64,000 nucleotides of DNA, taken from contig JAFDWO010000141.1 of NCBI GenBank assembly GCA_018268415.1, positions 1 through 64,000 on the forward strand, in the 5' to 3' direction. The translations under genes were made by a program, and so were the position numbers. Source of the stretch: Actinomycetota bacterium. Its GTDB lineage: Bacteria > Actinomycetota > Thermoleophilia > Solirubrobacterales > 70-9. A model generated the notes under the pieces. It was not told the origin of the DNA. It did no database searches and saw nothing but the letters and a program-made list of their open reading frames with translations. Below, piece by piece: positions 15,155-32,689 of the stretch (the stretch's first letter is position 1; each line of letters starts with the position of its first letter).

Positions 15155-15158
15155 CACC

Positions 15159-16975: not shown

Positions 16976-18094
16976 ATGCAAGGCCCCAAAGAGAGAAAGC
17001 TCTCCAAGCCACTGGCCACCGCGCTGGTGCTCGCCCTGCTCGCGATGGCCGCGCTCGTCGCCGGGTGCGGCGGCGGCAGCAGTACGACGAGCGGGGAAAC
17101 CGAAGCGGGTGCCGGGGGCGCCAAGGAAGAAGAAGGCGGCGGATCAGGGAGCACCGTCGAAAAGATCGCGATCGCCACGCCCGCCAAGGCCAACGACTAT
17201 GGCTGGAACGAACAGGGCGTGATGGGCGCCGAAAAAGTCGCCAACGAAATCGGGGCCGAACTCGAACAGACCACCGACATCGGCTACGAACAGACCGAAA
17301 CGGTCCTGCGGCAGATGGCCGAAAAGGAACCCGGCCTGCTGATCGCGCAGGCGAGTGGCTTCGACACCGCGGCCAAACGCGTCGCCGAAGAAACCGAAGT
17401 CCCGACGGTCACCTACGACATCGCCAACGAGGTCAAGCCGGGCATCCTCACCAGCATCATCACCTCGAGCCAGGAAGGCGCCTACCTGGCCGGGATCCTG
17501 GCGGCGAAAACGACCAAAACCGGCAAGGTCGGCGTCGTCATCTCCGCCTCGGACACCAACTGGTTCGAGATGACCGGCGGCTACGCCGCGGGCGTCCACT
17601 CGGTGGAACCGAAGATGCCGATCTCGTTCGCCGAGATCAGCGCCGAAGGGTACGACGACGCGGCCGGCGGTAAACGCGTGGTGACCAGCATGATCGCCGA
17701 AGGCGCCGACGTGATCTTCGGCATGGGCGACGGTGCGTCGTTCGGTTATCTGCAGGCGATCGAAACCGCCAACACCGGCAACAAGGTGTGGTACATCGGC
17801 GACATCGGCGACATGACGCCGATCGACAAGAAGGGAGTCCTGCTCTCCTCGGTGCTGTGGAACTTCGACGGCGCCTTCAAAACGTTCGTCGAAGAGCTCG
17901 AAGAAGGGACGTTCGGCGAAAAAGCCTACGACCTGAACCTCGAAAACGGCGGCATCTCGCTGCTCAAGTCCAAGCACATCCCGGCCTCGGTCTGGAAAGA
18001 AATCGAAACGGCCGAAGAAGAAATCCTGGCCGGGAAGATCGAAGTACCGGAAGCGACCACGATCGGCGCCGCGAAAGCCGCGCTGAAGGAATGA
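16976..18094 (+). CDS. BMP family ABC transporter substrate-binding lipoprotein
   Basis: 372 residues. A signal peptide ends in the lipobox ALVAGC, giving a lipid-anchored cysteine at about residue 31, then a Gly/Ser/Glu-rich linker and a Bmp/PnrA-type binding domain (ANDYGWNEQG, GVVISASD, YIGDIGDMTP). Family members bind nucleosides or other ring compounds and deliver them to the ABC permeases that follow. Glutamate is coded about 40 times by GAA and only a handful by GAG, the reverse of its neighbours. The gene overlaps the ATPase gene (ATGA). The substrate here may be a B6 vitamer, judged from the operon. Confidence 0.92.
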   Translation: MQGPKERKLSKPLATALVLALLAMAALVAGCGGGSSTTSGETEAGAGGAKEEEGGGSGSTVEKIAIATPAKANDYGWNEQGVMGAEKVANEIGAELEQTTDIGYEQTETVLRQMAEKEPGLLIAQASGFDTAAKRVAEETEVPTVTYDIANEVKPGILTSIITSSQEGAYLAGILAAKTTKTGKVGVVISASDTNWFEMTGGYAAGVHSVEPKMPISFAEISAEGYDDAAGGKRVVTSMIAEGADVIFGMGDGASFGYLQAIETANTGNKVWYIGDIGDMTPIDKKGVLLSSVLWNFDGAFKTFVEELEEGTFGEKAYDLNLENGGISLLKSKHIPASVWKEIETAEEEILAGKIEVPEATTIGAAKAALKE

Positions 18095-19758
18095 CCCGAC
18101 CGGATCAAGGAAGTTCCCGCCGCGACCCGGCGGCCGCCGCGCCCAGCGCGCGGACGGCCGCCGTGGTCGAGCTACAGGGGATCACCAAGCGGTTCCCCGG
18201 CGTCCTCGCCAACGACGACATCAGCTTCGACGTCCGTCCCGGCGAGGTCCACTCGCTGCTCGGCGAGAACGGCGCCGGCAAGTCGACGCTGATGGCGATC
18301 CTCTCCGGGATCCAGACGCCGGACTCGGGCGAGATCCGGGTCGACGGGACGCCGGTGCGGATCGACTCGCCGCGCAAGGCGCTCGACCTCGGGATCGGCA
18401 CCGTCTACCAGCACTCGACCCTGATCCCGGCGCTCACCGTGCTGGAGAACCTGATGCTCGGCGACTCTACCGGGCTGCGGCTCGACGCCGCCGGCGCGCG
18501 GGCGCGGCTGGAGGAGTTCGGGGCGCTGCTCGGGGTCGACGTCGACCCGGCGGCGCGGGCCGCCGACCTCGCGCTCGGCCGCCAGCAGCAGGTGGAGATC
18601 ATCAAGGCCCTCTGGCGCGGCTCGCGCCTGCTGATCCTCGACGAGCCGACCTCGATGCTGACCCCGCAGGCGGTGGAGGAGCTCTACACCGTTCTCGGCC
18701 GGCTCAAGGCCGACGGGCTGGCGACGATCTTCATCACCCACAAGCTGCACGAGGCGGTCTCGCTCGGCGACCGCATCTCGGTGCTGCGGCGGGGTCAGAT
18801 GGTCGGCACCCTGAACGCCGACGCGGTCGGCTCGACCCCGCCCGACAAGCTCGAGGAGATCGTCATCGAGATGATGTTCGGCGCCGCCGCCGCCGATCTC
18901 TCCGAGGTCGGCGAGCTGCGGGTCGGCGGGGTGGAGGAGGCCGACGCGGCGGCGCCGGCCGGCCCCGCGCGGGTCCTGGGCGAGCCGCTCCTCGAGCTGG
19001 TCGGCGTCGCCGCGCCGGGTGTCGGGACCGACCCCGGGATCGCCGACGTCGACCTCGTCGTGCACGAGGGCGAGGTGGTCGGCGTCGCCGGCGTCGACGG
19101 CAACGGCCAGCGCGCGCTGGCCGAGGCGATCAGCGGCCAGCGGCGGGCGAGCGGCGGCGAGATCCGCCTCTTCGGCGCCCCGGTCAATCGGCTCAGCGTG
19201 CTGAAGCGCGAGAAGCTCGGCCTGCGTTATCTGACCGACGATCGGATCGGCGAAGGGATCGTCGGCAACCTCAGCATCGCGCTGAACCTCTTCTTGAAGC
19301 GGATCGGCCAGCCGCCCTACTGGCGCTACGGCAGCGTCCGCAAGCGGGCGATCGACGCCCGCGCGGAAGAGCTCTGCGAGCAGTTCGACGTCCGCGCCCC
19401 CGGGGTCGAGACCCGCGCCGGGACCCTCTCCGGCGGCAACATGCAGAAAGTCCTCCTCGCCCGCGAGCTCTCCTTCGGCTCCAAGGTCGTGATCTTCCAT
19501 AAGCCGACCTACGGGCTGGACCTCAAAACCACGCTCGCGGTGCGGGAGATGATCCGCCAGATGCGCGACGGCAAGGCCGCGCTGGTGATCTCCACCGACC
19601 TCGACGAGCTGCTCGAGGTGTCGGACCGGATCGTCGTCCTCTCCCGCGGTCGCCTGGTCGGCGAGGTCGCGCCGGGCCCGGGCGCCGCCGAAGAGATCGG
19701 CGGGCTGATGATCGGCGATGTCTCCCTGAGCCTGGCCGGAGCCGAGAGCGCCGCATGA
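18091..19758 (+). CDS. ABC transporter ATPase with two nucleotide-binding domains
   Basis: 555 residues, tandem ATPase of the ribose/nucleoside importer type. NBD1 has Walker A GENGAGKST, signature LALGRQQQVE and Walker B LLILDEPTS. NBD2 has a degenerate Walker A (GVDGNGQRA), LSGGN and a Walker B-like IFHKPTYGLD lacking the catalytic Glu; such asymmetry is normal for the family. Start ATG 18091 overlaps the preceding TGA. It energises uptake through the two permeases downstream. Confidence 0.92.
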   Translation: MTRPDQGSSRRDPAAAAPSARTAAVVELQGITKRFPGVLANDDISFDVRPGEVHSLLGENGAGKSTLMAILSGIQTPDSGEIRVDGTPVRIDSPRKALDLGIGTVYQHSTLIPALTVLENLMLGDSTGLRLDAAGARARLEEFGALLGVDVDPAARAADLALGRQQQVEIIKALWRGSRLLILDEPTSMLTPQAVEELYTVLGRLKADGLATIFITHKLHEAVSLGDRISVLRRGQMVGTLNADAVGSTPPDKLEEIVIEMMFGAAAADLSEVGELRVGGVEEADAAAPAGPARVLGEPLLELVGVAAPGVGTDPGIADVDLVVHEGEVVGVAGVDGNGQRALAEAISGQRRASGGEIRLFGAPVNRLSVLKREKLGLRYLTDDRIGEGIVGNLSIALNLFLKRIGQPPYWRYGSVRKRAIDARAEELCEQFDVRAPGVETRAGTLSGGNMQKVLLARELSFGSKVVIFHKPTYGLDLKTTLAVREMIRQMRDGKAALVISTDLDELLEVSDRIVVLSRGRLVGEVAPGPGAAEEIGGLMIGDVSLSLAGAESAA

Positions 19759-20954
19759 GCACCGTCCCCGGCAACGAACTGCTGACCGAGGTCGAGGTCC
19801 CGAACCGCGCCGGCGCCCGTTCCGGCGCGGTCGGCAAAGCGATCGACACGGTGATCCGCTCGCTCGTGCCGGTGCTGCTGGCGCTGGTCGCGGGCGGCGT
19901 CCTGCTGCTCATCCTCGGCCACAACCCGTTCGCCTTCTACTCCTCGGTCTGGGAACACGGGGCGCAGAACAAAGCCTGGCAGGAAAGCGCGAAACGGATG
20001 GCGCCGCTGCTCCTGATCGCGGTCGGCCTGATCGTCGCCTTCCGCGCGAACATCTGGAACCTCGGCTACAACGGCCAGTTCCTGCTCTCGGCGGCGATCA
20101 TCTCCGGCCTGGCGCCGTCGCTGGTCAACGACCTGCCGCTGGGGCTCGCCTTCCTCATCCTCTTCCTCGTCGCCGGCGCGGTCGGCGCGATCTGGACGAT
20201 CGTGCCCGCCCTGCTGAAGGCGTTCTACGAGACGAACGAGATCATCACCACGCTGATGATGTCCTTCATCGGCGTCGGGCTCGCCCAGATCCTGATCAAA
20301 GGTCCCTTCCAGGACCCGAGCGTGAACATCGCCCAGACCAAGGTCCTGGAACTCGACAAGATGCTGCCCCATATCCCGGGGACCAAAGTCCACGTCGGGG
20401 TGCTGGTCGCGCTGGCGGCAGCGGTCGTGGTCTACCTGGCGATCTCGCGCACCTCGTTCGGTCTCAAGATCGACGTGCTCGGCGCCAACCCGCGCGCCGC
20501 CCGTCACGTCGGCATCGGGGTGAAGCAGCTGATCATCACCAGCTTCTTCATCAGCGGCGCGCTGATCGGCGCCGCCGCGGCCGCCGACATCCTCGGCGTC
20601 TGGGGCTACATCCGGGCGAACTGGAACCCGGCCTACGGCGACACGGTGATCCCGTTCGTCTTCCTCGCCCGCCTCAACCCGCTGGTCGTGATCCCCTTCA
20701 TCGCGTTCTTCGCCGTGCTCTCGACCGGGGGCACGTTGGCGACCCAGGAAGTCGGCCTGCCGACCGACTTCCTCCTCGTCCTCGTCGCCCTGATCCTGCT
20801 CTTCATGACGGTGATCGAGTTCCTCGGCCGCCGCCGCTCGCTCGGCCAGAGCTACCTGACGACCGGATTGAAGGACGCGTTGCGCCCCCCCGGCTCGAAG
20901 AAGAAGGCGCCGCCGACCGAGGTCGAGGAGAAGCCGCGCGAGGTGGTCCGGTGA
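19755..20954 (+). CDS. ABC transporter permease (BMP-type importer, subunit 1)
   Basis: 399 residues with many hydrophobic helices of the BPD_transp_2 permease family. Recognisable segments are LLLIAVGLIVAFRANIWNLG, NEIITTLMMSFI (the ATPase-contact loop) and GANPRAARHVGI. The C-terminal tail is charged (KKKAPPTEVEEKPREVVR) and cytoplasmic. Overlaps the ATPase gene by four bases and the next permease by four (GTGA). Confidence 0.92.
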   Translation: MSTVPGNELLTEVEVPNRAGARSGAVGKAIDTVIRSLVPVLLALVAGGVLLLILGHNPFAFYSSVWEHGAQNKAWQESAKRMAPLLLIAVGLIVAFRANIWNLGYNGQFLLSAAIISGLAPSLVNDLPLGLAFLILFLVAGAVGAIWTIVPALLKAFYETNEIITTLMMSFIGVGLAQILIKGPFQDPSVNIAQTKVLELDKMLPHIPGTKVHVGVLVALAAAVVVYLAISRTSFGLKIDVLGANPRAARHVGIGVKQLIITSFFISGALIGAAAAADILGVWGYIRANWNPAYGDTVIPFVFLARLNPLVVIPFIAFFAVLSTGGTLATQEVGLPTDFLLVLVALILLFMTVIEFLGRRRSLGQSYLTTGLKDALRPPGSKKKAPPTEVEEKPREVVR

Positions 20955-21886
20955 CCAACCTGTTCCACCAGGACGTCCTCACGGCGCTGATCTCGGGCGG
21001 CGTGATCGCCGGCATCCCGCTGCTCCTGGCGGCTTGCGGCGAGTCGATCTCGGAGCGCTCCGGGGTGCTCAACCTGGGCCTGGAAGGGATGATGATCATC
21101 GGCGCCTACACCGGGTTCGTCGCCGCCTACTACCTCCACTCGACCTGGCTCGGCTTCCTCGGTGGGGCCGGCGGCGGGGTGCTGGCCTGCACCGTGATGA
21201 TCGTCCTCTGCGTCTGGCTCGGCCTCGACCAGATCGTCGTCGGGATCGCGATCACCCTGGCCGGGGAGGGGATAACCAGCGTGCTCCAGGGGGCCCAGTT
21301 CGGTACGACCTACCCGCGCCTCGGGGCGACGCCGACGACCTCGATCCCGCTGCTGCACAAGATCCCGGTGATCGGGCCCGGCCTCTTCGAGCAGAACCTC
21401 CTCGTCTATCTCGGCATCATCTTCGCCGTCTTCCTCACCTGGTTCTTCCGGTCGACCTCGGTCGGCCTCAACCTGCGCGCGGCGGGCGAGAAGCCCGAGG
21501 CGCTCGATGCCGCCGGCGTCAGCGTCGCCGCCACGCGCAGCTGGGCGGTTCTCTCGACCGGCGCCCTGGCCGGCCTCGGCGGCGGCTTCCTGGCGATCGT
21601 CGGGGCGGGGGTCTTCACCCCGTTCATGACCCAGGGCCAGGGGTACATGGCGATCGTGATCTGCATGCTCGGCCGCGGCAAGCCGATCTGGGTCGCCCTC
21701 GCCTCGCTGCTCTTCGGCATCTCGCTGTCGATCACGACCGCCCTGCAGCTCGCGGGCATCGAAATTTCGACCGATCTCATAAACATGTTGCCGTTTATCG
21801 CGGTGATGGTGGCGCTGGTGCTCTTCGGCCGGCGGTCCTACCTTCCCCCCGCCCTTGCCCTTCCGTACATAAGAGGAGCGCGCTGA
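20951..21886 (+). CDS. ABC transporter permease (BMP-type importer, subunit 2)
   Basis: 311 residues, second permease of the importer. Typical motifs are ESISERSGVLNLGLEGMMI near the N-terminus, the NLRAAGEKPEALDAAGV loop and RGKPIWVA near the end. GTG start overlaps the previous stop. Together with the neighbouring three genes it forms a complete uptake system. It ends one base before the GntR gene. Confidence 0.92.
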   Translation: MTNLFHQDVLTALISGGVIAGIPLLLAACGESISERSGVLNLGLEGMMIIGAYTGFVAAYYLHSTWLGFLGGAGGGVLACTVMIVLCVWLGLDQIVVGIAITLAGEGITSVLQGAQFGTTYPRLGATPTTSIPLLHKIPVIGPGLFEQNLLVYLGIIFAVFLTWFFRSTSVGLNLRAAGEKPEALDAAGVSVAATRSWAVLSTGALAGLGGGFLAIVGAGVFTPFMTQGQGYMAIVICMLGRGKPIWVALASLLFGISLSITTALQLAGIEISTDLINMLPFIAVMVALVLFGRRSYLPPALALPYIRGAR

Positions 21887-21887
21887 C

Positions 21888-22574
21888 ATGTCCATAAGCG
21901 AGACCGATGGCCGCAACACGAAATCGATCGGCGTCCGTCACAAAACCCTGCGCGAGCAGGTCTTCGATCACCTGCGCGAGGAGATCCTCGCCAGCCGGCT
22001 GAAACCGGGCCAGGAGCTGAACGAGCTGGCCCTATCGGGGGAACTCGAAGTCAGCCGCGGCCCGATCCGCGAGGCGCTCAGCCGGCTCGAGAGCGAAGGC
22101 CTGGTGAAGGTCGCGCCGCGCCGCGGGGCGATCGTCGCCGAACTGAGCGACGAGGAATTCGTCGAGGCCTACCAGGTGCGCGAGGCGCTGGAGACGCTGG
22201 CGATCAGGTTGGCGGTGCCCCGCATCGAAGGAGACGAGCTCGACCGCCTGCGCGCGCTGCACGAGGAAATGACCGAGTTCGTCGCCAAGGACCAGATCCA
22301 GGAGTTCTTCGACGCCAATGCCGCCTTCCACCAGCAGATCGTCGACGCCTCCGGCAACGCGAAACTCGGCGAGCACTACCGCCTGCTGATGGCGCAGATG
22401 GGCCGTTACCTGCCGCGGTCGCTGACCCTGCGCGGCACGATCGGCTCCTCCCCCACTGAACACGCGGCGATCCTCGCCGCGATCGAAGCCCGCGACCCGG
22501 AGGAGGCGTCCCGCCTGCTCGGCAACCACATCGAGATCCCGCAGCGGATCGAGGCGGAAGAAAGCGAGGAATAG
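21888..22574 (+). CDS. GntR-family (FCD subfamily) transcriptional regulator
   Basis: 228 residues. An N-terminal winged helix (LREQVFDHLREEILASRL, then SRGPIREALSRLESEGLV) is followed by an all-helical FCD ligand-binding domain with Asp/His residues (ANAAFHQQIVD, NHIEIP) that commonly bind a metal and a carboxylate ligand. It lies inside the operon, between transport and catabolic genes, and is a natural candidate for sensing a pathway acid and controlling the shared sites at 16832 and 31830. Confidence 0.92.
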   Translation: MSISETDGRNTKSIGVRHKTLREQVFDHLREEILASRLKPGQELNELALSGELEVSRGPIREALSRLESEGLVKVAPRRGAIVAELSDEEFVEAYQVREALETLAIRLAVPRIEGDELDRLRALHEEMTEFVAKDQIQEFFDANAAFHQQIVDASGNAKLGEHYRLLMAQMGRYLPRSLTLRGTIGSSPTEHAAILAAIEARDPEEASRLLGNHIEIPQRIEAEESEE

Positions 22575-23620
22575 TGAACGCGGAGCGCAGCCGAAAGGTC
22601 GAGTTCGGAGTCAACCTGAACAACCGGGAGCCGTTGATCGCCCCCGACTACGACCTCCCCGCCCTGCTCGACCTCTCCGAGCGCGTCGAGGGCCTCGGCT
22701 TCGACTCCGTCTGGGTCGGCGACAGCCTCTTCTCCAAGCCGCGCTACGAGTCGATCTCGCTGCTCTCGGCGATCTCACAGCGGACCGAGCGGGTGCGCCT
22801 CGGCACCGCCTGCCTGATCAGCACCCAGCGCAATCCCCTGGTCCTCTCGATGGAGTGGTCGACGCTCGACCAGATCTCCGGCGGCCGGACGATCTTCGGG
22901 CCCTGCATGGGCAGCGCCGAAGTGCGCGTCCGGCAGGAGTACAAGGCGCTCGGCCTGCCCTTCAAGGAGCGGGCGACGATCTTCGAGGAGGGCCTGCACG
23001 TCCTCCGCACGCTGTGGACGGAGGGCAAGGTCGACTTCCACGGCGAGTTCTTCGACTACGACGAGATCGCCTTCCACTCGGGCACCGAGATGGTGCCGCT
23101 GATGCCGATCCAGCAGCCGCCGCCGACCTGGATCGTCTCCAATCCGCGCCTCATCGACGAGTCCCACGACGAGCGGATGGTGCGGATCATGAAGCGCGCC
23201 TGCCGGCGGATCATCGAGTACGGCGACGGCTGGATGACCTGCTGTCGTGCCCAGCACCCGGAGGAGCTGACCGAGCAGATCGGTTATCTGACCGAGGCGG
23301 CGCGTGAGCTGGGGAAGGACTTCGCCGACTACGAGGTCGCCTACCAGGTGACGATGAACGTCGGCGACTCGGAGGCGAGCGCCAACGTCGCCTTCGACGA
23401 ATACATCTCCAAGTACTACCCCGAGCTCTCGCAGAACATGGACCTCTCCAACTGGGGCCCGGTGGGGGAGCCGGAGCAGATCGCCGCCTGGCTGCGCGAG
23501 TTCGCCGATCGCGGCGTGACGCACTTCATCTGCCGCTTCGGCGACCTGGACCAGGTCGGCCAGGTGGAGCGATTCGCAAACGAAGTCCTACCCGCGTTCG
23601 AACGCGAGATGGCGAGGTGA
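22574..23620 (+). CDS. Luciferase-like flavin-dependent monooxygenase
   Basis: 348 residues of the bacterial luciferase-like TIM-barrel superfamily, using FMNH2 or F420. Recognisable parts are DLSERVEGLGFDSVWVGDS, RVRLGTACL and the C-terminal GEPEQIAAWLREFADRGV. GTG start shares one base with the preceding TAG. Enzymes of this fold open the pyridine ring in some actinobacteria (PyrA-type), so it is a candidate ring-opening oxygenase. No flavin reductase gene is visible nearby. Confidence 0.88.
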   Translation: MNAERSRKVEFGVNLNNREPLIAPDYDLPALLDLSERVEGLGFDSVWVGDSLFSKPRYESISLLSAISQRTERVRLGTACLISTQRNPLVLSMEWSTLDQISGGRTIFGPCMGSAEVRVRQEYKALGLPFKERATIFEEGLHVLRTLWTEGKVDFHGEFFDYDEIAFHSGTEMVPLMPIQQPPPTWIVSNPRLIDESHDERMVRIMKRACRRIIEYGDGWMTCCRAQHPEELTEQIGYLTEAARELGKDFADYEVAYQVTMNVGDSEASANVAFDEYISKYYPELSQNMDLSNWGPVGEPEQIAAWLREFADRGVTHFICRFGDLDQVGQVERFANEVLPAFEREMAR

Positions 23621-24633
23621 GTGACGAAATGGCAACTGCCGAGGAGATCCGCAAGGACGCCGAGCTGGTGATCGACGTGTGCATGTCGGTCGAGCCCGAA
23701 GACGTGGTGACGATCATCTGCGACAACGAGCACCGGGTGGAAGCCGACGCGCTGGCGGAGGTCGCCGTCGACCGCGGCGCCTGGCCGGTCGTGATGGACA
23801 ACGAAATGCAGGTCAGGCGCGGGCGCGCCGACACCAGCTTCCCGATGGCGCCGCCGAAGAACCTGGAGCAGGCGATGATCAGCTCCGACGAGATCATCGT
23901 CGTCACCAACCTCGAGTGGGCGAACCGCTTCTGCCACGTGCCCGCGATCGGCGAAGCCCTGAAGAACCGGGCGAAGATCTGCTCGGTCGAGCCCGGCATG
24001 GGCGGCTGGGGGTTGACCAAAGAGAAGATCCTCAACTCGACCCGGCGCGCCGAAGCGGCGATCGCGGCGCTGGAGGGTAAGAAGCAGTGCCGCGTCACCT
24101 CGCCGAAAGGGACCGACGTGACGGTCACGATCGAGGGCCGGCCGGCGCTGGAGGTCACCTCGATCAAGGAGCGTGGCCAGATGATGGGGCCGCTGCCGCT
24201 CTGGGCCGAGGTCGCCTTCGCCGCGGTCGAGGACGGGACCGACGGGACCATCGTCGTCGACGGGGTGATGCTGGGGATCGGGCTGCCCGGCCAGGTCACC
24301 GAGCCGATCACCTGGAAGATGGAGAAAGGGCACGCCGTCTCGATCGAGGGCGGTGAGGACGCGCGGCGCCTGCGCGAGGTGATCGAGGGCGTCGAGAACG
24401 CCGACGTCACCGGCGAGTTCGCCTTCGGCGTCTCCGAGGTCGCCCCGTTCGGCACGCCTTCGGAGAAGGGGCGGGTGGGGACCGTGCACTTCGCCCTCGG
24501 CGACAACCACCTCTCCTACCCGGGCGGCAAGAACGTCTCCTCGCTGCACCTGGACGGGGTCATCCTCGACGCGACGCTGCAGATCGTCGACGACGGCACC
24601 TACATCGTCAAAGACGGGAAGTGGGCGCTTTGA
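23617..24633 (+). CDS. NicX/M29-like metalloenzyme (2,5-dihydroxypyridine dioxygenase or aminopeptidase T family)
   Basis: 338 residues, the size of 2,5-dihydroxypyridine 5,6-dioxygenase (NicX), which shares its fold with M29 aminopeptidases. The C-terminal metal region is clear: His298 in GDNHLS, then His311-x-Asp313 in HLDGVILD, as in NicX and M29 proteins. In the setting of a molybdenum hydroxylase, ring cleavage of a dihydroxylated pyridine is more plausible than peptide hydrolysis, but the sequence alone does not decide. GTG start overlaps the preceding TGA. Confidence 0.78.
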   Translation: MSDEMATAEEIRKDAELVIDVCMSVEPEDVVTIICDNEHRVEADALAEVAVDRGAWPVVMDNEMQVRRGRADTSFPMAPPKNLEQAMISSDEIIVVTNLEWANRFCHVPAIGEALKNRAKICSVEPGMGGWGLTKEKILNSTRRAEAAIAALEGKKQCRVTSPKGTDVTVTIEGRPALEVTSIKERGQMMGPLPLWAEVAFAAVEDGTDGTIVVDGVMLGIGLPGQVTEPITWKMEKGHAVSIEGGEDARRLREVIEGVENADVTGEFAFGVSEVAPFGTPSEKGRVGTVHFALGDNHLSYPGGKNVSSLHLDGVILDATLQIVDDGTYIVKDGKWAL

Positions 24634-25004
24634 GCGCAGGCGCGATCAGCGTGGTGCCGCTCGCGGAGGTCGAGACGATCGACCTCCCGGGCGGCAGTTG
24701 GAGCCGGATGCTGATCACCGGGTCGACGGTCGGCGGCAACGCCGCCTCGCTCGGGTACTCGGTGTTCCGGCCGGGCACGGAGCTCACCTCGGTGTCCCAC
24801 GAGACCGAGGAGGTCGCCTACGTCGTCAGCGGCAGCGGGCGCCTCGACACCGACGCGGGCGAGGTCCGCTTCACCGCCGGGGACGCGATCCACATCCCCG
24901 CGGTCACCTGGCACGCGGTCGTCAACGACTCGGACGCCGACGTGGTGATGGTCTTCGGCTTCCCCCATCCGGACTACCCGCCGACCGAGAGGCGCGAGGG
25001 GTAG
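24630..25004 (+). CDS. Small cupin-domain protein
   Basis: 124 residues, single cupin barrel. Motif 1 is VSHETEEVAYVVSGSG (His and Glu ligands) and motif 2 is IPAVTWHAVVN with the last His. Such proteins bind Fe, Mn or Zn and act as dioxygenases, isomerases or ligand sensors. The TTG at 24630 is the likely start: it overlaps the upstream stop (TTGA) and lies eight bases after GGGAAG, whereas a GTG at 24621 has no room for a ribosome site. The role in the pathway is unknown. Confidence 0.8.
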   Translation: MSAGAISVVPLAEVETIDLPGGSWSRMLITGSTVGGNAASLGYSVFRPGTELTSVSHETEEVAYVVSGSGRLDTDAGEVRFTAGDAIHIPAVTWHAVVNDSDADVVMVFGFPHPDYPPTERREG

Positions 25005-25009
25005 GAGCG

Positions 25010-25741
25010 ATGGCGGCGACGGCGGGAGACCGGCAGATCAGGGACCTCCGCGCGGAAGTCGCCTGGGCCTGTCGGATCCTGGCCGAGCACGGCTATCGCG
25101 ACCTGACCCTCGGGCACGTCAGCGCCCGCGACCCGGGCGACCCCGGACGCATCTGGATCAAGCGGCGTGGCCTCACCCTCGCCGAGATCGAGCCCGAGGA
25201 CGTGATCGCGGTCGACCTCGACTCCCACCCGGAGAGCGCGACGCCGGAGATGCACCTGGAGACCGTCCTCCACACCGAGGTCTACCGGCGGCGCGAGGAC
25301 GTCACCGCCGTCGCCCACGGGCACCCGCCGTACTCCACCGCCCTCGGCGCCACCGACTCCCCGCTGCTCACCCTGACCCACGACGCGGTCCTCTTCGACC
25401 GCGGGATCGCCACCTTCGAGAACGCCGACCTGATCACCGAGGTGAGCCAGGCCGAACAGGTGGCCGATGCGCTCGGTGACCACAGCGCGGTGCTGATGCG
25501 CAACCACGGCGTGCTGGTCGCCGGCGCCGACATCCGCTGGCTGGTGCTGACCGCGGTGACCCTGGAGCGGGCGGTGATGCTGCAGTCGATCGCGGTGACC
25601 CTGGGCAGCCCGCGCCCGATCGAAGACGGGTTGCTCGGCGACCTCAACCGGCGTAAGTACGACGACTATCTCGTCAACGAATACTGGGAAGCCTGGGTGC
25701 GCGAACTGCGCCGCGGCGGCATCGGGATCAAGGAGGACTAG
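25010..25741 (+). CDS. Class II aldolase/adducin-family protein, candidate pyridine-dicarboxylate decarboxylase
   Basis: 243 residues. Metal-binding histidines of the class II aldolase fold are seen in AVAHGHPPYS and RNHGVLVAG; the first half contains GHVSARDPGD. In Mesorhizobium, 3-hydroxy-2-methylpyridine-4,5-dicarboxylate 4-decarboxylase belongs to this family, and the neighbours here match that pathway, so the same reaction is proposed. By fold alone it could be a sugar-phosphate aldolase. Five bases separate it from the cupin gene and two from the iron-sulfur subunit gene. Confidence 0.8.
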   Translation: MAATAGDRQIRDLRAEVAWACRILAEHGYRDLTLGHVSARDPGDPGRIWIKRRGLTLAEIEPEDVIAVDLDSHPESATPEMHLETVLHTEVYRRREDVTAVAHGHPPYSTALGATDSPLLTLTHDAVLFDRGIATFENADLITEVSQAEQVADALGDHSAVLMRNHGVLVAGADIRWLVLTAVTLERAVMLQSIAVTLGSPRPIEDGLLGDLNRRKYDDYLVNEYWEAWVRELRRGGIGIKED

Positions 25742-25743
25742 GG

Positions 25744-26217
25744 ATGGCCGACGCGCGGTTGACCATCACCGTCAACGGCGTCGCTCGCGAGCTGACCGTG
25801 CCCGAGCACGAGCTGCTGCTCGACACCCTGCGTGATCGGCTCGGGCTGAAGGGCGCGAAGCGCTCGTGCGACGTCCAGGTCTGCGGTGTGTGCACGGTCC
25901 TGGTCGACGGCGAGCCGGTCAGTGCCTGCACCTTCCTGACTGCCGACGCCGCGGGTCGGGAGGTGCTGACGATCGAGGGGTTCGCCGAGAGCGAGGAGTT
26001 CGCCGAGTTCGAGCGCGCCTTCGCCGATCGCGCCGCGGTCCAGTGCGGCTTCTGCACCGGCGGCTTCGTGCTGACCCTGAAGGCGCTGCGCGACGCCGGC
26101 GAGCTGAACGACCGCGAGGACATCATCGCCGGCCTCGACGGCAACGTCTGCCGTTGCACCGGCTACAAGTCGATCGTCGAAGCCGCCGAAGCGATCGCCG
26201 CGGGGGGTTCGGCGTGA
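25744..26217 (+). CDS. Molybdenum hydroxylase small subunit, two [2Fe-2S] clusters
   Basis: 157 residues, CoxS/NdhS type. The plant-ferredoxin-like N-terminal domain has cysteines in RSCDVQVCGVC and VSAC; the helical domain has CGFC and CRC. It passes electrons from the molybdenum centre to the FAD subunit. GTGA overlap joins it to the large subunit. The FAD subunit is not next to it but on the other strand at 30293. Confidence 0.93.
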   Translation: MADARLTITVNGVARELTVPEHELLLDTLRDRLGLKGAKRSCDVQVCGVCTVLVDGEPVSACTFLTADAAGREVLTIEGFAESEEFAEFERAFADRAAVQCGFCTGGFVLTLKALRDAGELNDREDIIAGLDGNVCRCTGYKSIVEAAEAIAAGGSA

Positions 26218-28517
26218 GCGTCGGGGCGGCGACCGGGGTGACGCCGGAGCGGGTCGGCAGGTCCGACCGTCGCAAGGACCTCGGCGAGAAGATCCGCGGC
26301 AAGGCCGAGTTCACCGGTGATCTCGAGGTCCCACGGATGCTGCACGGCAAGGTGCTGCGCGCGGAGCTGCCGCACGCCCGGATCGTCTCGATCGACACGT
26401 CGGCGGCCGCGGCGATGGACGGCGTGGTCGCGGTGCTGGTCGGCAGCGAGCTCGGCGAGTTCAACCCGCGCTGGGGGCACGCGATCAAAGACCGCCCGAT
26501 CCTGGCGATCGATCGGGTCCGCTTCCAGGGGGAGCCGGTGGCCGCCGTCGCCGCTGTCGACGAGGAGACGGCCGAGGCGGCGGTGCGCCGGATCGCGGTC
26601 GAGTATGAGGCGCTCGAGGTGGTGGACACGGTCGCTGCGGCGACCGCCGCCGACGCCCCGCTGATCCACGCGGAGACGGTCGAGCCGGGTCTCTTCCACG
26701 GCCTCGGCGATCTCCCCGAGGAGGAAGGCAACGTCTGTTACCGCTACCGGCTCGACGCGGGCTCGGTGGAGCTCGACGAGGCCGAAGCCGAGCTGACGGT
26801 GGAAGGCGAGTACGAGTTCCCCGCCGTCTACCAGTACGCGATGGAAACCCACACCGTGATCGCCGACTTCGGCGACGGGGAGGTGACGCTGTGGGCTTCC
26901 TGCCAGCACCCGTTCCTGGTGCGGGCGGAGATCGCCGACCTGTTCCGGCTGCCGATCGGCCGGGTGCGGGTGATCGTGCCCTACCTCGGCGGCGGCTTCG
27001 GCTCCAAGAGCTACACGAAGATGGAGCCGCTGACGACGGCGCTGGCCTGGAAGGCCGGCCGGCCGGTGCGGATCCAGAACCGGGTCGACGAGTCGATGCT
27101 CACCACCCGCCGCCACGGGATGCGCTGCCGGATGCGGACCACCGCGACGGCGGACGGTCGGCTGGTCTCGCGCAACGTGCGGCTCTGGCTCGACACCGGC
27201 GCCTACGCCGACAACGGCCCGCGCGTCTGCGCGACGGCTGGCGATGCGGCCCCCGGGCCGTACCGCTGGGACGCGGTCAGCGTCGACGCCAACTGCGTCT
27301 ACACCAACACCTCGCCAGCCGGCTCCTACCGCGCCTTCGGCGCCGTCCACACCCAGTGGATCGGCGAGATGCAGATCGACGAGCTGGCCCGCAAGGCGGG
27401 CCTCGACCCCCTGGAGATGCGCCGCCGCAACCTGCTGAAGCCGGGAGAACCGGTCCGCCCGGACGGCACCGGCAAGCCGCTCGACGCGGACCTGATCGGT
27501 GACGTCGAAAGGGCCGCCGCGGCGGTCGGCTGGGACGAGCCCCGCTCCGACTCGGTCGGGCGCGGCGTCTCGGTGGGGCTCCTCGCCGCCGGCGCCCACC
27601 CGGTCTCCCGGGCGAGCGTGCGGATGGAGGCCGACGGCAGCGTCGAGGTCAACGTCGGCACCACCGAAATGGGACAGGGGGCGCGCACGGTGATGGCGCA
27701 GATCGCCGCCCAGGAGCTCGACATCGACCTCGACCGGGTGACCGTCCAGGGGGCCGACACGCGCTTCACCCCTTACGACCGCTCCACCGGAGCGAGCCGC
27801 TCGACCACGCTTGCCGGCCTCGCCGTGCAGCGCGCCGCCGCCGACCTGCGCCGGCGGCTGGTCGAGACCGCCGCCTCCCGCTGGGGGGTCGAGCCCGACT
27901 CTTTGGCGGTCCGCGACGGAGTCGTCGAGGGGGCGGGGGAGAGGGCCGGCTACGAGCAGCTGATCGAGATGCGCTTCGGGTTCGTCGGCGGCGAGGTGAT
28001 CGGCGAGGGCGAGGTGCGTCCCGACCGGGGCAGCGGCTCCTACGCCGAGGGCCCGGTGTTCTGGGAGGTTTGCATCGCCGCGGCCCAGGTTCGGGTCGAC
28101 CCCGAGACCGGCCGGATCGCCGTGGAGCGGATGGCGACGATCGCCGACGTCGGCAAGGCGATCAACCCGCTGCTGGTCGAGCGCCAGGACGAGGGCGCGG
28201 TGCTGCAGGGCATCGGCAACGCGCTGTTCGAGGAGATGGTCTTCAGCGGCGGATACCTGACCAACGACACGTTGCTCGACTATCGCGTGCCGCGGATCGA
28301 GGACATGCCCGCGGCGATGCGGGGAATCATCGTCGAGAACGGTGACGGGCCCGGCCCCTACGGGGCGAAGGGCTGCGGCGAGGGTGCGCAGGCGGCGACG
28401 CCCGCGGCGCTGGCGACCGCCCTGGCGGACGCCGGGGTGCCGATGAACGAGCTTCCGCTAACGCCGGAACGGGTGTGGCGACGGATAAACGAACTCAAGG
28501 AGGGCGAACGAGGATGA
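26214..28517 (+). CDS. Molybdenum hydroxylase large (Moco-binding) subunit
   Basis: 767 residues, CoxL/xanthine dehydrogenase-type catalytic subunit. Seen are the PYLGGGFGSK cofactor loop, GAYADNG, NTSPAGSYRAFG, and GAKGCGE with Glu723 as the catalytic base. It lacks the AYxCSFR selenocysteine-type loop of CO dehydrogenase, so it is a hydroxylase of an aromatic heterocycle or aldehyde. In this operon it may hydroxylate a pyridine carboxylate next to the ring nitrogen, as nicotinate dehydrogenases do (inference). ATGA overlap with the following dehydrogenase gene. Confidence 0.93.
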   Translation: MSVGAATGVTPERVGRSDRRKDLGEKIRGKAEFTGDLEVPRMLHGKVLRAELPHARIVSIDTSAAAAMDGVVAVLVGSELGEFNPRWGHAIKDRPILAIDRVRFQGEPVAAVAAVDEETAEAAVRRIAVEYEALEVVDTVAAATAADAPLIHAETVEPGLFHGLGDLPEEEGNVCYRYRLDAGSVELDEAEAELTVEGEYEFPAVYQYAMETHTVIADFGDGEVTLWASCQHPFLVRAEIADLFRLPIGRVRVIVPYLGGGFGSKSYTKMEPLTTALAWKAGRPVRIQNRVDESMLTTRRHGMRCRMRTTATADGRLVSRNVRLWLDTGAYADNGPRVCATAGDAAPGPYRWDAVSVDANCVYTNTSPAGSYRAFGAVHTQWIGEMQIDELARKAGLDPLEMRRRNLLKPGEPVRPDGTGKPLDADLIGDVERAAAAVGWDEPRSDSVGRGVSVGLLAAGAHPVSRASVRMEADGSVEVNVGTTEMGQGARTVMAQIAAQELDIDLDRVTVQGADTRFTPYDRSTGASRSTTLAGLAVQRAAADLRRRLVETAASRWGVEPDSLAVRDGVVEGAGERAGYEQLIEMRFGFVGGEVIGEGEVRPDRGSGSYAEGPVFWEVCIAAAQVRVDPETGRIAVERMATIADVGKAINPLLVERQDEGAVLQGIGNALFEEMVFSGGYLTNDTLLDYRVPRIEDMPAAMRGIIVENGDGPGPYGAKGCGEGAQAATPAALATALADAGVPMNELPLTPERVWRRINELKEGERG

Positions 28518-29446
28518 GCGAGGTCAAGCGTGCGGCGGTGGTCGGGACCGGGACGATGGGTCCGGGAATGGGCGCGGTGCTGGAGCGGGCGGGCATCGAG
28601 GTGCGGCTCTTCGACGTCTCCACCGCGGCGCTCGAGAAAGCGAAGGGGATGGTCGAGATGGCGCGCGGCGTCCTCGACCGGCTCGGCACCGACTCCAGCC
28701 CGGGCGGCTCGATCGCCTTCCACGACGACCTTGCGGAGGCGCTCGCCGACGTCGACTTCGTGCTCGAGGCGGCGCCGGAGAAACTCGAGCTGAAGCAGCA
28801 GATCTTCGGTGAATTCGAGCAGCACGCGCCGGCGACCGCGATCCTCAGCTCCAACACCTCGGGGATCCCGGTGACGAAGATCGCCGCCGACCTCGATCAC
28901 CCGGGGCGGGTCATCGGGATGCACTGGTCGAACCCGCCGCACCTGATCCCGATGATCGAGGTGATCCCCGGTGAGCGCACCGACGCCGCCACGGTCGAGG
29001 CCGCCGAAGGCCTGATCGCCAAGGTCGGCTATCACCCGAGCCGTCTCCGCAAGGAGGTCCCGGGCTTCGTCGAGAACCGGGTCCTCTACGCGATCATGCG
29101 GGAGTGCCTGGCGCTGGTCGACGAGGGCGTGATCGACGCCGAGGGCCTCGACCTGAACGTCAAGTGGGGCATCGGCTACAAGCTCGCGGTGATCCCGCCG
29201 ATGCAGCTGCTCGACGTCGCCGGGCTCGATATCTACGAGAACGTGGCGAGCTACCTGAACGCCGACATCTCGACTGAGTCGGGCGTCTCGGAGACGGTCA
29301 CGAAGCTGACCGGCGAAGGCAAGCTCGGGCTGAAGACCGGCGGCGGACTCTTCTCCTACTCGGACGAAGAACTTGCGGAGCTGCCGAAAAGGCGCGCGGC
29401 CGCGCTGGTCGCGGTGCGCAAGACCCTGAACGAACAAGCGGTCTGA
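28514..29446 (+). CDS. 3-hydroxyacyl-CoA dehydrogenase fold, FHMPC dehydrogenase-like
   Basis: 310 residues. NAD motif GTGTMG is at 11-16 and the catalytic pair is His137/Glu149 in GMHWSNPPHLIPMIEV. This and the segments LYAIMRECLALVDEGVID and WGIGYKLAVIPP match, by recall, the Mesorhizobium 5-formyl-3-hydroxy-2-methylpyridine 4-carboxylate 5-dehydrogenase and not typical fatty-acid enzymes, which read HFFNP. That enzyme converts FHMPC to the 4,5-dicarboxylate and can also dismutate it. Twelve bases precede the lactonase gene. Confidence 0.85.
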   Translation: MSEVKRAAVVGTGTMGPGMGAVLERAGIEVRLFDVSTAALEKAKGMVEMARGVLDRLGTDSSPGGSIAFHDDLAEALADVDFVLEAAPEKLELKQQIFGEFEQHAPATAILSSNTSGIPVTKIAADLDHPGRVIGMHWSNPPHLIPMIEVIPGERTDAATVEAAEGLIAKVGYHPSRLRKEVPGFVENRVLYAIMRECLALVDEGVIDAEGLDLNVKWGIGYKLAVIPPMQLLDVAGLDIYENVASYLNADISTESGVSETVTKLTGEGKLGLKTGGGLFSYSDEELAELPKRRAAALVAVRKTLNEQAV

Positions 29447-29458
29447 GAGGAGGCGGCG

Positions 29459-30211
29459 ATGGGCGTCGAACGAGTGTGGTTGCTGGACAGTGGCAGCCTG
29501 GTCATCGACCAGTCCCACATCACCTGGAACATCGGTTGCGGCACGCCGGTGCGCTTCCCCGTGTACAGCGTGCTGATCGAGCACGACCGGGGGCTCTTCC
29601 TCTTCGACTCCGGCTTCGACAAGGGCACGGTGGAAGAGTTCCTGCCCTTCGAGCTGCCCGAGCAGACCGACGAGCAGACGCTGCCGGCGCAACTCGATCG
29701 GTGCGGGTTCAAGCCTGCGGACGTGACCGCGATCTTCAACTCGCACCTCCACTTCGACCACTGCGGCGGCCAGCGCCACCTGCCGGATGCGCCCACCTGG
29801 GTCGGCAAGGAGGAGCTGCGCCACGCGCTCGTGCCGGAGTCCTTCGAGCGGCTGGGCTACGCCGACAAGGTCTTCCACAAGCCCGACTCCGAGTACCGCT
29901 GGCTGGAGGACGAGGTGGTCGAGCCGGCACCGGGGATCAGGTTGATGCGGACGCCCGGCCACACGGTCGAGCACTACTCGCTGATCCTTGAGAAACCCGA
30001 CCGCGCGCCGCTCTTCTTCTGCGCCGACGTGACCTACACCCAGGAAAGCTGGGACAAAGAGCTGATCGCGGGCTTCCACCACGATCCGAGCGCCAACGTC
30101 GCCTCGCTGAGGCGGGTGAAAGCGCTCGCCGCCCGCATCGACGCCGAGGTCTTCCTCACCCACGACATGAACGCCTGGGACGGCTACAAACACGCCCCCG
30201 ACCACTACTGA
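29459..30211 (+). CDS. Metallo-beta-lactamase-fold lactonase, 4-pyridoxolactonase-like
   Basis: 250 residues. The dizinc site is complete: His96-Leu-His98-Phe-Asp100-His101, His168, Asp190 and His235. The N-terminal stretch VWLLDSGSLVID, then VRFPVYSVLIEH, LPFELPEQT, FERLGYAD, VTYTQES and THDMNAW agree closely, by recall, with 4-pyridoxolactonase, which opens 4-pyridoxolactone to 4-pyridoxate. GAGAGGAGGCGGCG gives a strong ribosome site. Last gene of the 13-gene operon, followed by the hairpin at 30216. An AHL-lactonase role is less likely. Confidence 0.87.
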   Translation: MGVERVWLLDSGSLVIDQSHITWNIGCGTPVRFPVYSVLIEHDRGLFLFDSGFDKGTVEEFLPFELPEQTDEQTLPAQLDRCGFKPADVTAIFNSHLHFDHCGGQRHLPDAPTWVGKEELRHALVPESFERLGYADKVFHKPDSEYRWLEDEVVEPAPGIRLMRTPGHTVEHYSLILEKPDRAPLFFCADVTYTQESWDKELIAGFHHDPSANVASLRRVKALAARIDAEVFLTHDMNAWDGYKHAPDHY

Positions 30212-30292: not shown

Positions 30293-31168
30293 TTAGGCGC
30301 CGCGGGACTCGGCCAGGGCCTCGCGCAGGGTCCGGCCGGCGATCACGCCGACCAGGTGACGCTTGTAGTCGACCGATCCGTTGGCGTCCTCCACCGGATC
30401 GGCGGCGTCGGCCGCGAGGTCGGCGACCTCGGCCAGGGCGCCCTCCAGGTCGTCGGCCTCGCGGCCGTTCAGGAGCACCTCGGCGCGCTCGACCCGGCTC
30501 GGCCGGTTGCCGGCCGAGCCGACCGCGAGCCGCACGTCGGCGAGGCGCGAGCCGTCGCGGCGCAGGTGGGCGGCGACCGTGATCGCCGGGCGCTCGGTCA
30601 GCACGAACTTGCGGTGCACGATCGCCGCGCCCGGTGCCGGCGCCGGCACCAGGACGCCGGCGAGCAGCTCGCCGTCGACCAGGGCGTTTTCGAACGGCCC
30701 GGTGGTGAAGGACGCGAGCGGGATCTCGCGCCGTTCGTCGGCGCCCCGGCGGGCTTCGAGGCGCGCCCCGGCGGCAAGCAGGTAGGTGGCCGGGTCGGAG
30801 TGGGGGTCGCCGAAGCAGAGGTTGCCACCGATCGAGCCCATCGTCCGCACCCGCAGGTTGCCGACCCCGCGCTCCATCGTGGCCAGCGAGCCCCACTGCT
30901 CGCGGACGAGCGGATGGCGCTCGATCGAGCGGTGGGTCTCGGCGGCCCCGATGCGCAGCTCGCCGTCGCGGCGTTCGATCCCGAACAGGTCCCCGATCCC
31001 CTTGAGGTCGATCAGGTGCGGATATTCGGCGAAGCCGAGCTTGAAGAGGAGGAAGAGCTCGGTCCCGCCCGCGTAGACGACGGCGTCCTCGCCGTAGGTT
31101 TCGAGCAGCTCGGTGGCCCCGGCGAGGCTCGCGGGCCGGTGGCGGTCGAATGCCGGCAGGACGGTCAT
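30293..31168 (-). CDS. Molybdenum hydroxylase FAD-binding (medium) subunit
   Basis: 291 residues, CoxM/NdhF-type flavoprotein. The FAD motifs YAGGTELF and TMGSIGGNLCFGDPHSDP are present, and the C-terminal CO_deh_flav_C domain follows (HRKFVLTERPAITVAA). It should complete the hydroxylase made by the subunits at 25744 and 26214, although it is coded on the opposite strand in a separate unit with the CoxG-like gene. Confidence 0.92.
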   Translation of the reverse strand: MTVLPAFDRHRPASLAGATELLETYGEDAVVYAGGTELFLLFKLGFAEYPHLIDLKGIGDLFGIERRDGELRIGAAETHRSIERHPLVREQWGSLATMERGVGNLRVRTMGSIGGNLCFGDPHSDPATYLLAAGARLEARRGADERREIPLASFTTGPFENALVDGELLAGVLVPAPAPGAAIVHRKFVLTERPAITVAAHLRRDGSRLADVRLAVGSAGNRPSRVERAEVLLNGREADDLEGALAEVADLAADAADPVEDANGSVDYKRHLVGVIAGRTLREALAESRGA

Positions 31169-31186: not shown

Positions 31187-31777
31187 TCACGCACTCGCGT
31201 CTCCTCGTCGCCGCCCGCCGAAGGCGCGCCGGATCCTGCCCCAGAGGACGCCGAGCATCAGCCGCACCCCGTTGATCGGCTTCGGCTCGCCCGGCGTGGA
31301 CGCCGGGGCGCCTCCGTCGACTGTCCCGCCGGGGCCGTCGAAGCGGGAGGCGAGGCAGTTCGCCATGTCGCCGACGATCCGGTCGGCGACTTCGTCGATC
31401 ATTCCCTGCGCCATCTGGGCGGCGCGCCCACTGAGGTCGACCTCGGTGACGGTCTCCACCTGCGACCCGGCGCCACCCTCGCTGACCGTCATCGTCATCT
31501 GGGCGCGCGCATTGCCCTGGCCGCGCTGCTCGCGCAGGTCCGCCTCGAGCACGGCGCGGCGCGCGGCGTCGTCGGCCTCGCCGATCCGGACCTTGCCGCC
31601 GTAGGTCATCCGCATCGGTCCCAGTTTCACCGCGATTTTCGCCGGGTGGGCGCCGTCGGGGTCGGCGGGCCCGATCTCCCCGCCGGGGACGCAGGAGCCG
31701 ACTCGCTCGAGGTCGATCAGCAGCGCGTAGGCCTCCACCGGCGGGGCCGGGATCTCGAAGCGCTTCTCGATCCTCAC
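31187..31777 (-). CDS. CoxG-family SRPBCC protein
   Basis: 196 residues. The N-terminal 150 form a CoxG/SRPBCC fold (FEIPAPPVEAYALLIDLERVGSCVPG split over its first strands; RIVGDMANCLASRF helix). The tail contains Pro/Gly linker and a basic amphipathic helix (LWGRIRRAFGGRRRG) that may touch the membrane. CoxG proteins accompany molybdenum hydroxylases and can help anchor them. It is the first gene of the unit with the FAD subunit, 18 bases apart, and diverges from the SDR operon. Confidence 0.85.
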   Translation of the reverse strand: MRIEKRFEIPAPPVEAYALLIDLERVGSCVPGGEIGPADPDGAHPAKIAVKLGPMRMTYGGKVRIGEADDAARRAVLEADLREQRGQGNARAQMTMTVSEGGAGSQVETVTEVDLSGRAAQMAQGMIDEVADRIVGDMANCLASRFDGPGGTVDGGAPASTPGEPKPINGVRLMLGVLWGRIRRAFGGRRRGDASA

Positions 31778-31954: not shown

Positions 31955-32689
31955 ATGAAGCTCGAAGATCGCGTCGCGATCGTGACCGGCGGCGCCCGCG
32001 GCATCGGTGCCGCCATCGCCCGCAAGCTGGACGCCGAGGGCGCGACCGTCGCCGTCGCCGACATCAACCTCGCCGGCGCCGAGGAGGCGGCGGGAGGGCT
32101 GGAGCGGGGGACCGCGGTCGAGGTCGACGTTGCCGATCCCGACTCGGTGGACGCGATGGTGGCTTCGGTCCTGGACGCGCACGGCCGCGTCGACGTGCTC
32201 GTCAACGATGCCGCCATCGTGCCGTTCATCCCGTGGGCCGAGGTCGACCTCGGGCACTGGCGCAAGCTGATCGACACCAACCTCACCGGCGTCTACCTCT
32301 GCACCCGGGCGGTCTGGGCGCCGATGCGCGACGCGGGCTACGGGCGGATCGTCAACATCGCCTCCAACACCTTCCTGGCGGGGACGCCGAACATGGCGGC
32401 CTACGTTGCCGCCAAGGGCGGGGTCGTCGGCTTCACCCGGGCGCTGGCGACCGAGGTCGGGGCCGACGGCATCACCGTCAACGCCGTCGCCCCCGGCCTC
32501 ACCGCCAGCGAGGGCGTGCTCGAAAGCCCGCATAAGGACGCGTTCGACTTCGTCCAGAGCCTGCAGGCGATCCCGCGTCGCGGTGAGCCCGACGACATCG
32601 CGCCGACCGTCGCCTTCCTCTGCTCGGAGGAAGCGGCCTGGGTGACCGGCCAGCTGATCGCCGTCGACGGCGGCCACACCCGCAACTGA
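31955..32689 (+). CDS. SDR, pyridoxal 4-dehydrogenase-like
   Basis: 244 residues. TGGARGIG is at 11-18, Ser137, Tyr150 and Lys154 form the active site. Segments AAIVPFIPWAEVDLGHWRK, NIASNTFLAGTPNMAAY and TRALATEVG agree almost residue by residue, by recall, with Mesorhizobium pyridoxal 4-dehydrogenase, which oxidises pyridoxal hemiacetal to 4-pyridoxolactone. ATG 31955 lies eight bases after AGGAGG. TGATG overlap with the amidase gene. Confidence 0.87.
   Translation: MKLEDRVAIVTGGARGIGAAIARKLDAEGATVAVADINLAGAEEAAGGLERGTAVEVDVADPDSVDAMVASVLDAHGRVDVLVNDAAIVPFIPWAEVDLGHWRKLIDTNLTGVYLCTRAVWAPMRDAGYGRIVNIASNTFLAGTPNMAAYVAAKGGVVGFTRALATEVGADGITVNAVAPGLTASEGVLESPHKDAFDFVQSLQAIPRRGEPDDIAPTVAFLCSEEAAWVTGQLIAVDGGHTRN

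Follow-up and report, generated by a model that had tools for sequence, protein, structure and literature searches.

Two catabolic routes for vitamin B6 have been described (PMC3538738). We analyzed a 64,000-nt stretch of DNA (the window; contig JAFDWO010000141.1 of assembly GCA_018268415.1) from an Actinomycetota bacterium (Solirubrobacterales; 70-9) with a genome of 4.74 Mb in 160 contigs, 94% complete, in which genes of vitamin B6 type are combined with a module that may open the pyridine ring in another way. The classical route opens the ring of 3-hydroxy-2-methylpyridine-5-carboxylate with MHPCO, a PHBH-type flavoprotein, and the second route also uses a flavoprotein oxygenase for ring opening. 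With pathway I of B6 degradation, that of Mesorhizobium loti and Pseudomonas MA-1, the window cluster shares the short-chain dehydrogenase/reductase (SDR) pyridoxal 4-dehydrogenase, the predicted lactonase, FHMPC dehydrogenase (FHMPC-DH) and transaminase, and a decarboxylase candidate of the class II aldolase type, but it lacks MHPCO and contains a molybdenum (Mo) hydroxylase (elsewhere an FAD hydroxylase), a luciferase-like (LLM) protein, an M29-like protein and a cupin.

The best explanation of these genes is that the operon codes for the breakdown of B6 via 4-pyridoxic acid to 3-hydroxy-2-methylpyridine-5-carboxylate, followed by a predicted non-classical ring-opening module. The model that we prefer, although we give it somewhat less than an even chance, is as follows. 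The three-subunit Mo hydroxylase, or an unrelated FAD hydroxylase in two genomes, would hydroxylate C6, the carbon adjoining the nitrogen and para to the 3-hydroxyl, and the product, 3,6-dihydroxy-2-methylpyridine-5-carboxylate (2,5-dihydroxy-6-methylnicotinate), would be present mostly as the pyridone. The LLM protein would act as an F420-type hydride transferase and reduce the pyridone, so that aromaticity is lost, and the M29/NicX-fold protein, with its intact di-metal site and together with the cupin, would hydrolyze the cyclic amide (lactam); acetate, ammonia and C4 acids would follow. That this amounts to a third bacterial B6 route, in which Mo hydroxylation, F420H2 reduction by the LLM protein and M29-family hydrolysis open the ring without an oxygenase, is a more tentative proposal still.

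The same proposed logic, from a hydroxylated ring through reduction to hydrolysis of a cyclic amide, is seen in the reductive nicotinate route of Eubacterium barkeri (6-hydroxynicotinate reductase and enamidase) and in reductive pyrimidine catabolism (PreAT/dihydropyrimidine dehydrogenase and dihydropyrimidinase), but the enzyme families here (LLM, M29) and the substrate are different. The system would be a form of vitamin B6 catabolism, which is known as a kind, and its ring-opening chemistry is possibly new; a literature search, which left most subscription journals outside its reach, found no description of a Mo hydroxylase, NicX-like or LLM gene in a B6 cluster.

Vitamin B6 context and recurrence of the module

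The assignment of the gene series to vitamin B6, made from protein family matches, is well based because the SDR (NF047923) and two components of the ABC transporter (NF047930 and NF047929) exceed their family cut-offs, although the lactonase (320.8 of 325 bits), FHMPC-DH (409 of 500) and pyridoxamine-pyruvate transaminase (PPAT; 401 of 600) are best matches under their equivalog cut-offs. The class II aldolase family protein (25010-25741), which the earlier note had overlooked, is probably the 3-hydroxy-2-methylpyridine-4,5-dicarboxylate 4-decarboxylase, because the 4-decarboxylase of the B6 pathway belongs to the same family. The zinc alcohol dehydrogenase (ADH; 34158-35201) is a candidate for the 4-pyridoxate dehydrogenase, a step otherwise missing here; it occurs in most actinobacterial clusters with enough flanking DNA, and none was seen in Thermomicrobiales.

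The earlier note had seen no PHBH-type ring-opening gene, and this is true of both the 64-kb window and the genome, as far as it is complete. The window contains no MHPCO-like gene, and the PF01494 proteins of the genome include none either, as judged from the annotation of their matches without a direct MHPCO query. The genome has 18 PF01494 matches: the full-length proteins are of the MhpA/rifampin-monooxygenase types (at least 500 residues), with one of the VioD/salicylyl-CoA-hydroxylase type, one partial match is a DAO-family protein, and the remainder are short dinucleotide-binding stretches. An MHPCO at another genomic site was rejected as none of these proteins fitted in the comparison with NCBIfam or PDB.

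Synteny of the module with B6 genes was found in soil bacteria of two or more phyla: it is seen in about 28 genomes, which come from Actinomycetota of the Solirubrobacterales type and from Thermomicrobiales and include one metagenome-assembled genome (MAG) labelled Bacillota; this recurrence shows that the gene order is not due to chance. A scan of named genomes gave 8 orthologous loci (Actinomycetota, Thermomicrobiales and one Bacillota-labelled MAG), in which the M29-like, cupin and aldolase genes are followed by the Mo hydroxylase genes or, in the isolate SZAS-14 (L018), by the FHMPC-DH gene. The LLM gene is present in 7 of the 8, the exception being the truncated locus L025, and over the length of DNA covered the loci are surrounded by genes for the lactonase, FHMPC-DH, SDR, PPAT and B6 transporter. 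A wider search, through 399 genomes of the source class and 158 of the class to which genome G402 belongs, detected the M29-like gene in 24 and 8 of them, respectively. Its product is 67-94% identical across most clusters, and the LLM protein is 60-98% identical in every cluster whose DNA extends to the gene; identity is lower than that of the M29-like protein for the aldolase (43-62% once the closest relatives are set aside) and the lactonase (40-60% in distant clusters).

The genome is short of complete and lies in many contigs, so the module might serve another compound while a classical MHPCO step is located in an unassembled part. We regard this as the least probable of the explanations considered, because in all of these genomes the module lies intermingled with B6 genes and because G564, assembled as one contig, has the module too, with an FAD enzyme that is far from MHPCO.

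The PF01425 amidase was considered as the core enzyme of amide hydrolysis. Its homologues were detected only in L018 and L019, and a gene confined to the closest relatives and not conserved over the clusters is unlikely to code for the core amide hydrolase; it was set aside as accessory.

Several variations were seen among these and similar clusters. Proteins of the 23S rRNA intervening-sequence type (PF05635) are coded within Thermomicrobiales B6 clusters (L024:9459-9893 and L047:4033-4539), one of the genes sitting between the LLM and M29-like genes, and the M29-like gene at G538:C79:64568-65575 (L055) has one in-frame TGA, from either sequencing error or decay. Plasmid searches using the SDR and the aldolase found no annotated classical B6 cluster. 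On a plasmid of Rhizobium daejeonense (L034:165-14930), genes for a B6-type transporter, a transaminase, a lactonase-like protein and an SDR stand beside those for an HpaB-type hydroxylase and MmgE/PrpD, and none of the genes listed is MHPCO-like; this is possibly a variant of B6 catabolism.

The predicted hydroxylation step

The window enzyme is a Mo hydroxylase of the xanthine-dehydrogenase type, since the Mo, FAD and [2Fe-2S] subunits and the GxGE catalytic motif were all found. Mo hydroxylase genes are present in 24 clusters. The clusters of isolate SZAS-14 and of G564 (L060; one contig, 99% complete) are without any Mo genes, and in both the FHMPC-DH gene directly follows the aldolase gene, and the ADH gene is succeeded by an intact gene for a PF01494 FAD monooxygenase. 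These flavoproteins share 67% identity, and within the DNA covered no cluster has the Mo hydroxylase and the FAD hydroxylase together. No orthologue of the Mo subunit was found in G564 (best match 35%; two other genomes from the same family reach 68-69%) or, at E 1e-60, in the genome of SZAS-14, and the other cluster genomes tested gave no good match to the flavoprotein.

In PDB, the best match of the SZAS-14 flavoprotein is to 4-hydroxybenzoate 1-hydroxylase and the decarboxylative hydroxylases related to it (267 bits), followed by 6-hydroxynicotinate 3-monooxygenase (NicC; 188) and MHPCO (84); its best NCBIfam match is 3-hydroxybenzoate 6-monooxygenase (253 bits, under the cut-off). Both flavoproteins thus appear to resemble ring hydroxylases such as 3-hydroxybenzoate 6-monooxygenase and NicC, not MHPCO. 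Mo hydroxylases usually target the ring carbons adjoining the nitrogen, and enzymes of the PHBH type act at positions ortho or para to a hydroxyl. For 3-hydroxy-2-methylpyridine-5-carboxylate, C6 would suit both chemistries; the FAD enzyme could also act at C4, a position that Mo enzymes rarely attack. Because C6 satisfies both rules, the swap suggests that the shared product is most likely the 3,6-dihydroxy acid. Hydroxylation by the Mo enzyme to a compound of the 2,5-dihydroxypyridine type, as the earlier note had supposed, therefore gains support from the swap in two genomes, from which we infer the product.

The Thermomicrobiales loci had raised the idea that the Mo hydroxylase replaces FHMPC-DH, and this was ruled out by the presence of the FHMPC-DH gene further along in 9 of 9 cluster genomes tested. 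In SZAS-14 (L018:19310-20605), a DDE transposase gene lies directly downstream of the FAD hydroxylase gene and is a possible vehicle of the swap.

The predicted ring reduction and hydrolysis

The M29-like protein has 338 residues and matches PF02073 above the gathering cut-off (45.6 bits; cut-off 27). The iron of NicX, the 2,5-dihydroxypyridine 5,6-dioxygenase of Pseudomonas putida KT2440, is held by H265, S302, H318 and D320, with E177 and H189 as substrate residues, and mutants with alanine at the ligands lose both iron and activity (PMC7910607). The four ligand positions correspond to E267, A293, H311 and D313 in the window protein and are E, A, H and D in 9 of 9 aligned orthologues, and the positions of E177 and H189 are occupied by V/I and P in the window protein and the nine aligned orthologues. 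In contrast, E198, E267, H291, H311 and D313 are invariant and align with the di-metal ligands of the M29 family, which in AmpT are E250, E316, H345, H376 and D378; the AmpT motifs were seen. NicX is thought to have lost one aminopeptidase metal site (PMC7356986), and the window protein, unlike NicX, keeps the full M29 metal set. As that set is intact while the NicX ligands are lost, a metallohydrolase is the straightforward reading. The protein shares the metal ligands E, E, H, H and D and the PF02073 score with the M29 aminopeptidases (AmpT, AmpS, PepS), but it is shorter than these (about 410 residues) and is coded in a catabolic operon, a context that argues for a small-molecule substrate.

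The earlier note had favored ring cleavage of the NicX type, in which this protein would be an Fe(II) dioxygenase that cleaves the dihydroxypyridine between the methyl- and hydroxyl-bearing carbons. The hydroxylase swap does favor a substrate of this type, and the protein shares fold, size and the H-x-D motif with NicX, H311 and D313 being the counterparts of H318 and D320. NicX was also the sole match in the PDB sequence search (E 0.002) and the closest in the fold search (Z 29.6 over 312 residues), ahead of the M29 aminopeptidases (Z 20-22; AmpT 22.0); the AlphaFold models were built from 8-9 related sequences and have pLDDT values of 77 and 74. In the tree, NicX and the M29-like proteins form two separate clades (100/100), and a joint clade was not rejected (p-AU 0.27). 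The deep branches did not resolve, so the ligand residues carry the argument between NicX and M29. With two of the four iron ligands and both substrate residues gone in all orthologues and with the M29 set complete, NicX-type cleavage is improbable. Of the hybrid of the B6 and nicotinate pathways proposed earlier, the B6 operon without MHPCO and Mo hydroxylation of the ring are supported, and NicX-type cleavage is not. Five other NicX-type proteins do retain the NicX iron set. One of them comes from a cluster on Thioclava plasmid p2 (L035:14001-19839) that also codes for an ABC transporter of B6 type, an isochorismatase, an HpaB-type hydroxylase and a flavin reductase, and this cluster may represent a NicX-based route for B6 or a relative.

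The M29-like/cupin gene pair is kept in the B6 clusters and also in a sister clade (L062-L067) from other families of the same class, where the two genes are adjacent and the M29-like protein is 52-55% identical. The sister loci have no LLM, FHMPC-DH, lactonase or aldolase genes. All 5 long loci code for a PreA-like protein of the dihydropyrimidine-dehydrogenase family, a UbiD-family decarboxylase and an M20 hydrolase, and also for either a Mo hydroxylase with a maturation factor or AFOR with an Fe-S protein; Mo and tungsten enzymes seem interchangeable among these loci. The pair is therefore accompanied by an enzyme of the ring hydroxylase type and by a reductase, which makes the LLM protein a candidate for the place of the reductase in the B6 clusters.

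The cupin itself might instead be the ring-cleaving enzyme, a gentisate-dioxygenase-like dioxygenase acting on an aza-gentisate, with the M29-like and LLM proteins downstream. The proposed intermediate is a gentisate analogue, and all clusters have the cupin, three residues of which (H/E/H) may form a metal site. However, gentisate dioxygenases are bicupins and this protein is a single domain of 127 residues that accompanies a ring reductase in the sister clade, so we consider such a role very improbable.

For the LLM protein, the best NCBIfam match is TIGR03619 (F420; 129 bits, under the cut-off of 166.9), and the nearest sequence families and PDB chains are F420-dependent enzymes. F420 synthesis genes were present in 9 of 9 cluster genomes tested (CofE in 8, CofD in the ninth). 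An F420H2-dependent luciferase-like hydride transferase that adds hydride to an aromatic ring, that of picrate, is known (PMC8498797). RutA, on the other hand, is an LLM enzyme of N-heterocycle catabolism that cleaves a ring amide via a flavin N5-oxide (PMC7662398), and a similar reaction may be envisaged here: after C6 hydroxylation, the LLM protein would be an FMNH2-dependent oxygenase splitting the pyridone, and the M29-like protein would hydrolyze the resulting acyl amide. This fits with the LLM protein being the only oxygenase-type protein common to all clusters and with its fold, whose matches include both FMN monooxygenases and F420 enzymes. However, RutA depends on RutF, a flavin reductase, and a gene for such a partner was not found in the window cluster; the LLM protein is only distantly similar to RutA in sequence and is closest to the F420 enzymes mentioned above, and the pair in the sister clade is accompanied by a reductase, not an oxygenase. 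We therefore consider this reaction unlikely, although it is the strongest competitor of F420-type reduction followed by lactam hydrolysis.

The preferred model builds on observed gene content, conservation, hydroxylase swap, metal ligands and genomic company, and several points weigh against it. The fold search did not separate FMN oxygenases from F420 enzymes for the LLM protein, and F420 ligase is present in 76 of 119 genomes of the phylum, so the presence of F420 genes is weak evidence and does not decide whether F420 is used. In fold, the M29-like model is nearest to NicX itself, and the PreA parallel comes from a clade with only 52-55% identity. The part of the cupin is putative, and every enzyme step, including the substrates, regiochemistry, F420 use and hydrolase reaction, is predicted.

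Layout of the locus and meaning of the proposed route

From position 16976, the genes form a single long forward run with frequent overlaps and a few divergent genes interspersed; the PPAT-like gene and two M20 hydrolase genes are divergent and lie upstream of it. The genes named in the earlier note (LLM, M29/NicX-like with H311-x-D313, cupin, Mo hydroxylase, amidase and M20 hydrolases) were found where it had placed them or close by.

Table 1. Features of the B6-type gene series in the window, with the matches on which each name is based
Feature	Position	Strand	Evidence
M20-family hydrolase a, accessory	12841..13986	-	PF01546 3e-9; homologue near clusters in L050, L051
M20-family hydrolase b, accessory	13970..15157	-	PF01546 3e-22; 51% homologue in L021
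PPAT-like aminotransferase	15159..16343	-	NF046070 401 bits, cut-off 600
BMP-type substrate-binding protein, B6 ABC transporter	16976..18094	+	PF02608; adjoins NF047930 and NF047929 transporter genes
ABC ATPase, putative B6 transporter	18091..19758	+	NF047930 701 bits, above cut-off; ATG start preceded by Shine-Dalgarno (SD) sequence
B6 ABC permease 2	19755..20954	+	NF047929 462 bits, above cut-off
B6 ABC permease 1	20951..21886	+	NF047928 434.5 bits, cut-off 465
GntR/FCD regulator	21888..22574	+	PF00392, PF07729
LLM flavin/F420 oxidoreductase, proposed ring reductase	22574..23620	+	PF00296 Bac_luciferase 2e-42
M29/NicX-fold metalloprotein, proposed lactam (amide) hydrolase	23617..24633	+	PF02073 45.6 bits
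Small single-domain cupin	24621..25004	+	PF07883
Class II aldolase family protein	25010..25741	+	PF00596 1.5e-39; SD-preceded ATG start
Mo hydroxylase [2Fe-2S] subunit	25744..26217	+	PF01799, PF00111
Mo hydroxylase molybdopterin subunit	26214..28517	+	PF02738, PF20256, PF01315; GAKGxGEG motif conserved
FHMPC 5-dehydrogenase (FHMPC-DH)-like protein	28514..29446	+	NF042925 409 bits, cut-off 500
4-Pyridoxolactonase-like MBL protein	29459..30211	+	NF047925 320.8 bits, cut-off 325
Mo hydroxylase FAD subunit	30293..31168	-	PF00941 2e-41
CoxG-like accessory protein of Mo enzyme	31187..31777	-	PF06240; adjoins FAD subunit gene
Pyridoxal 4-dehydrogenase (SDR)	31955..32689	+	NF047923 372 bits, above cut-off 325
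Amidase	32689..34161	+	PF01425 5e-87
Zn ADH	34158..35201	+	PF08240, PF00107

The natural single-gene FAD substitute for the Mo enzyme offers an experimental handle, as it should be easier to express. If the proposed route is true, it would be a third B6 route, present in uncultured soil Actinomycetota and Thermomicrobiales, and would explain the use of B6 by bacteria without MHPCO. It would also provide a function for a clade of M29-like proteins that are usually annotated as aminopeptidases.

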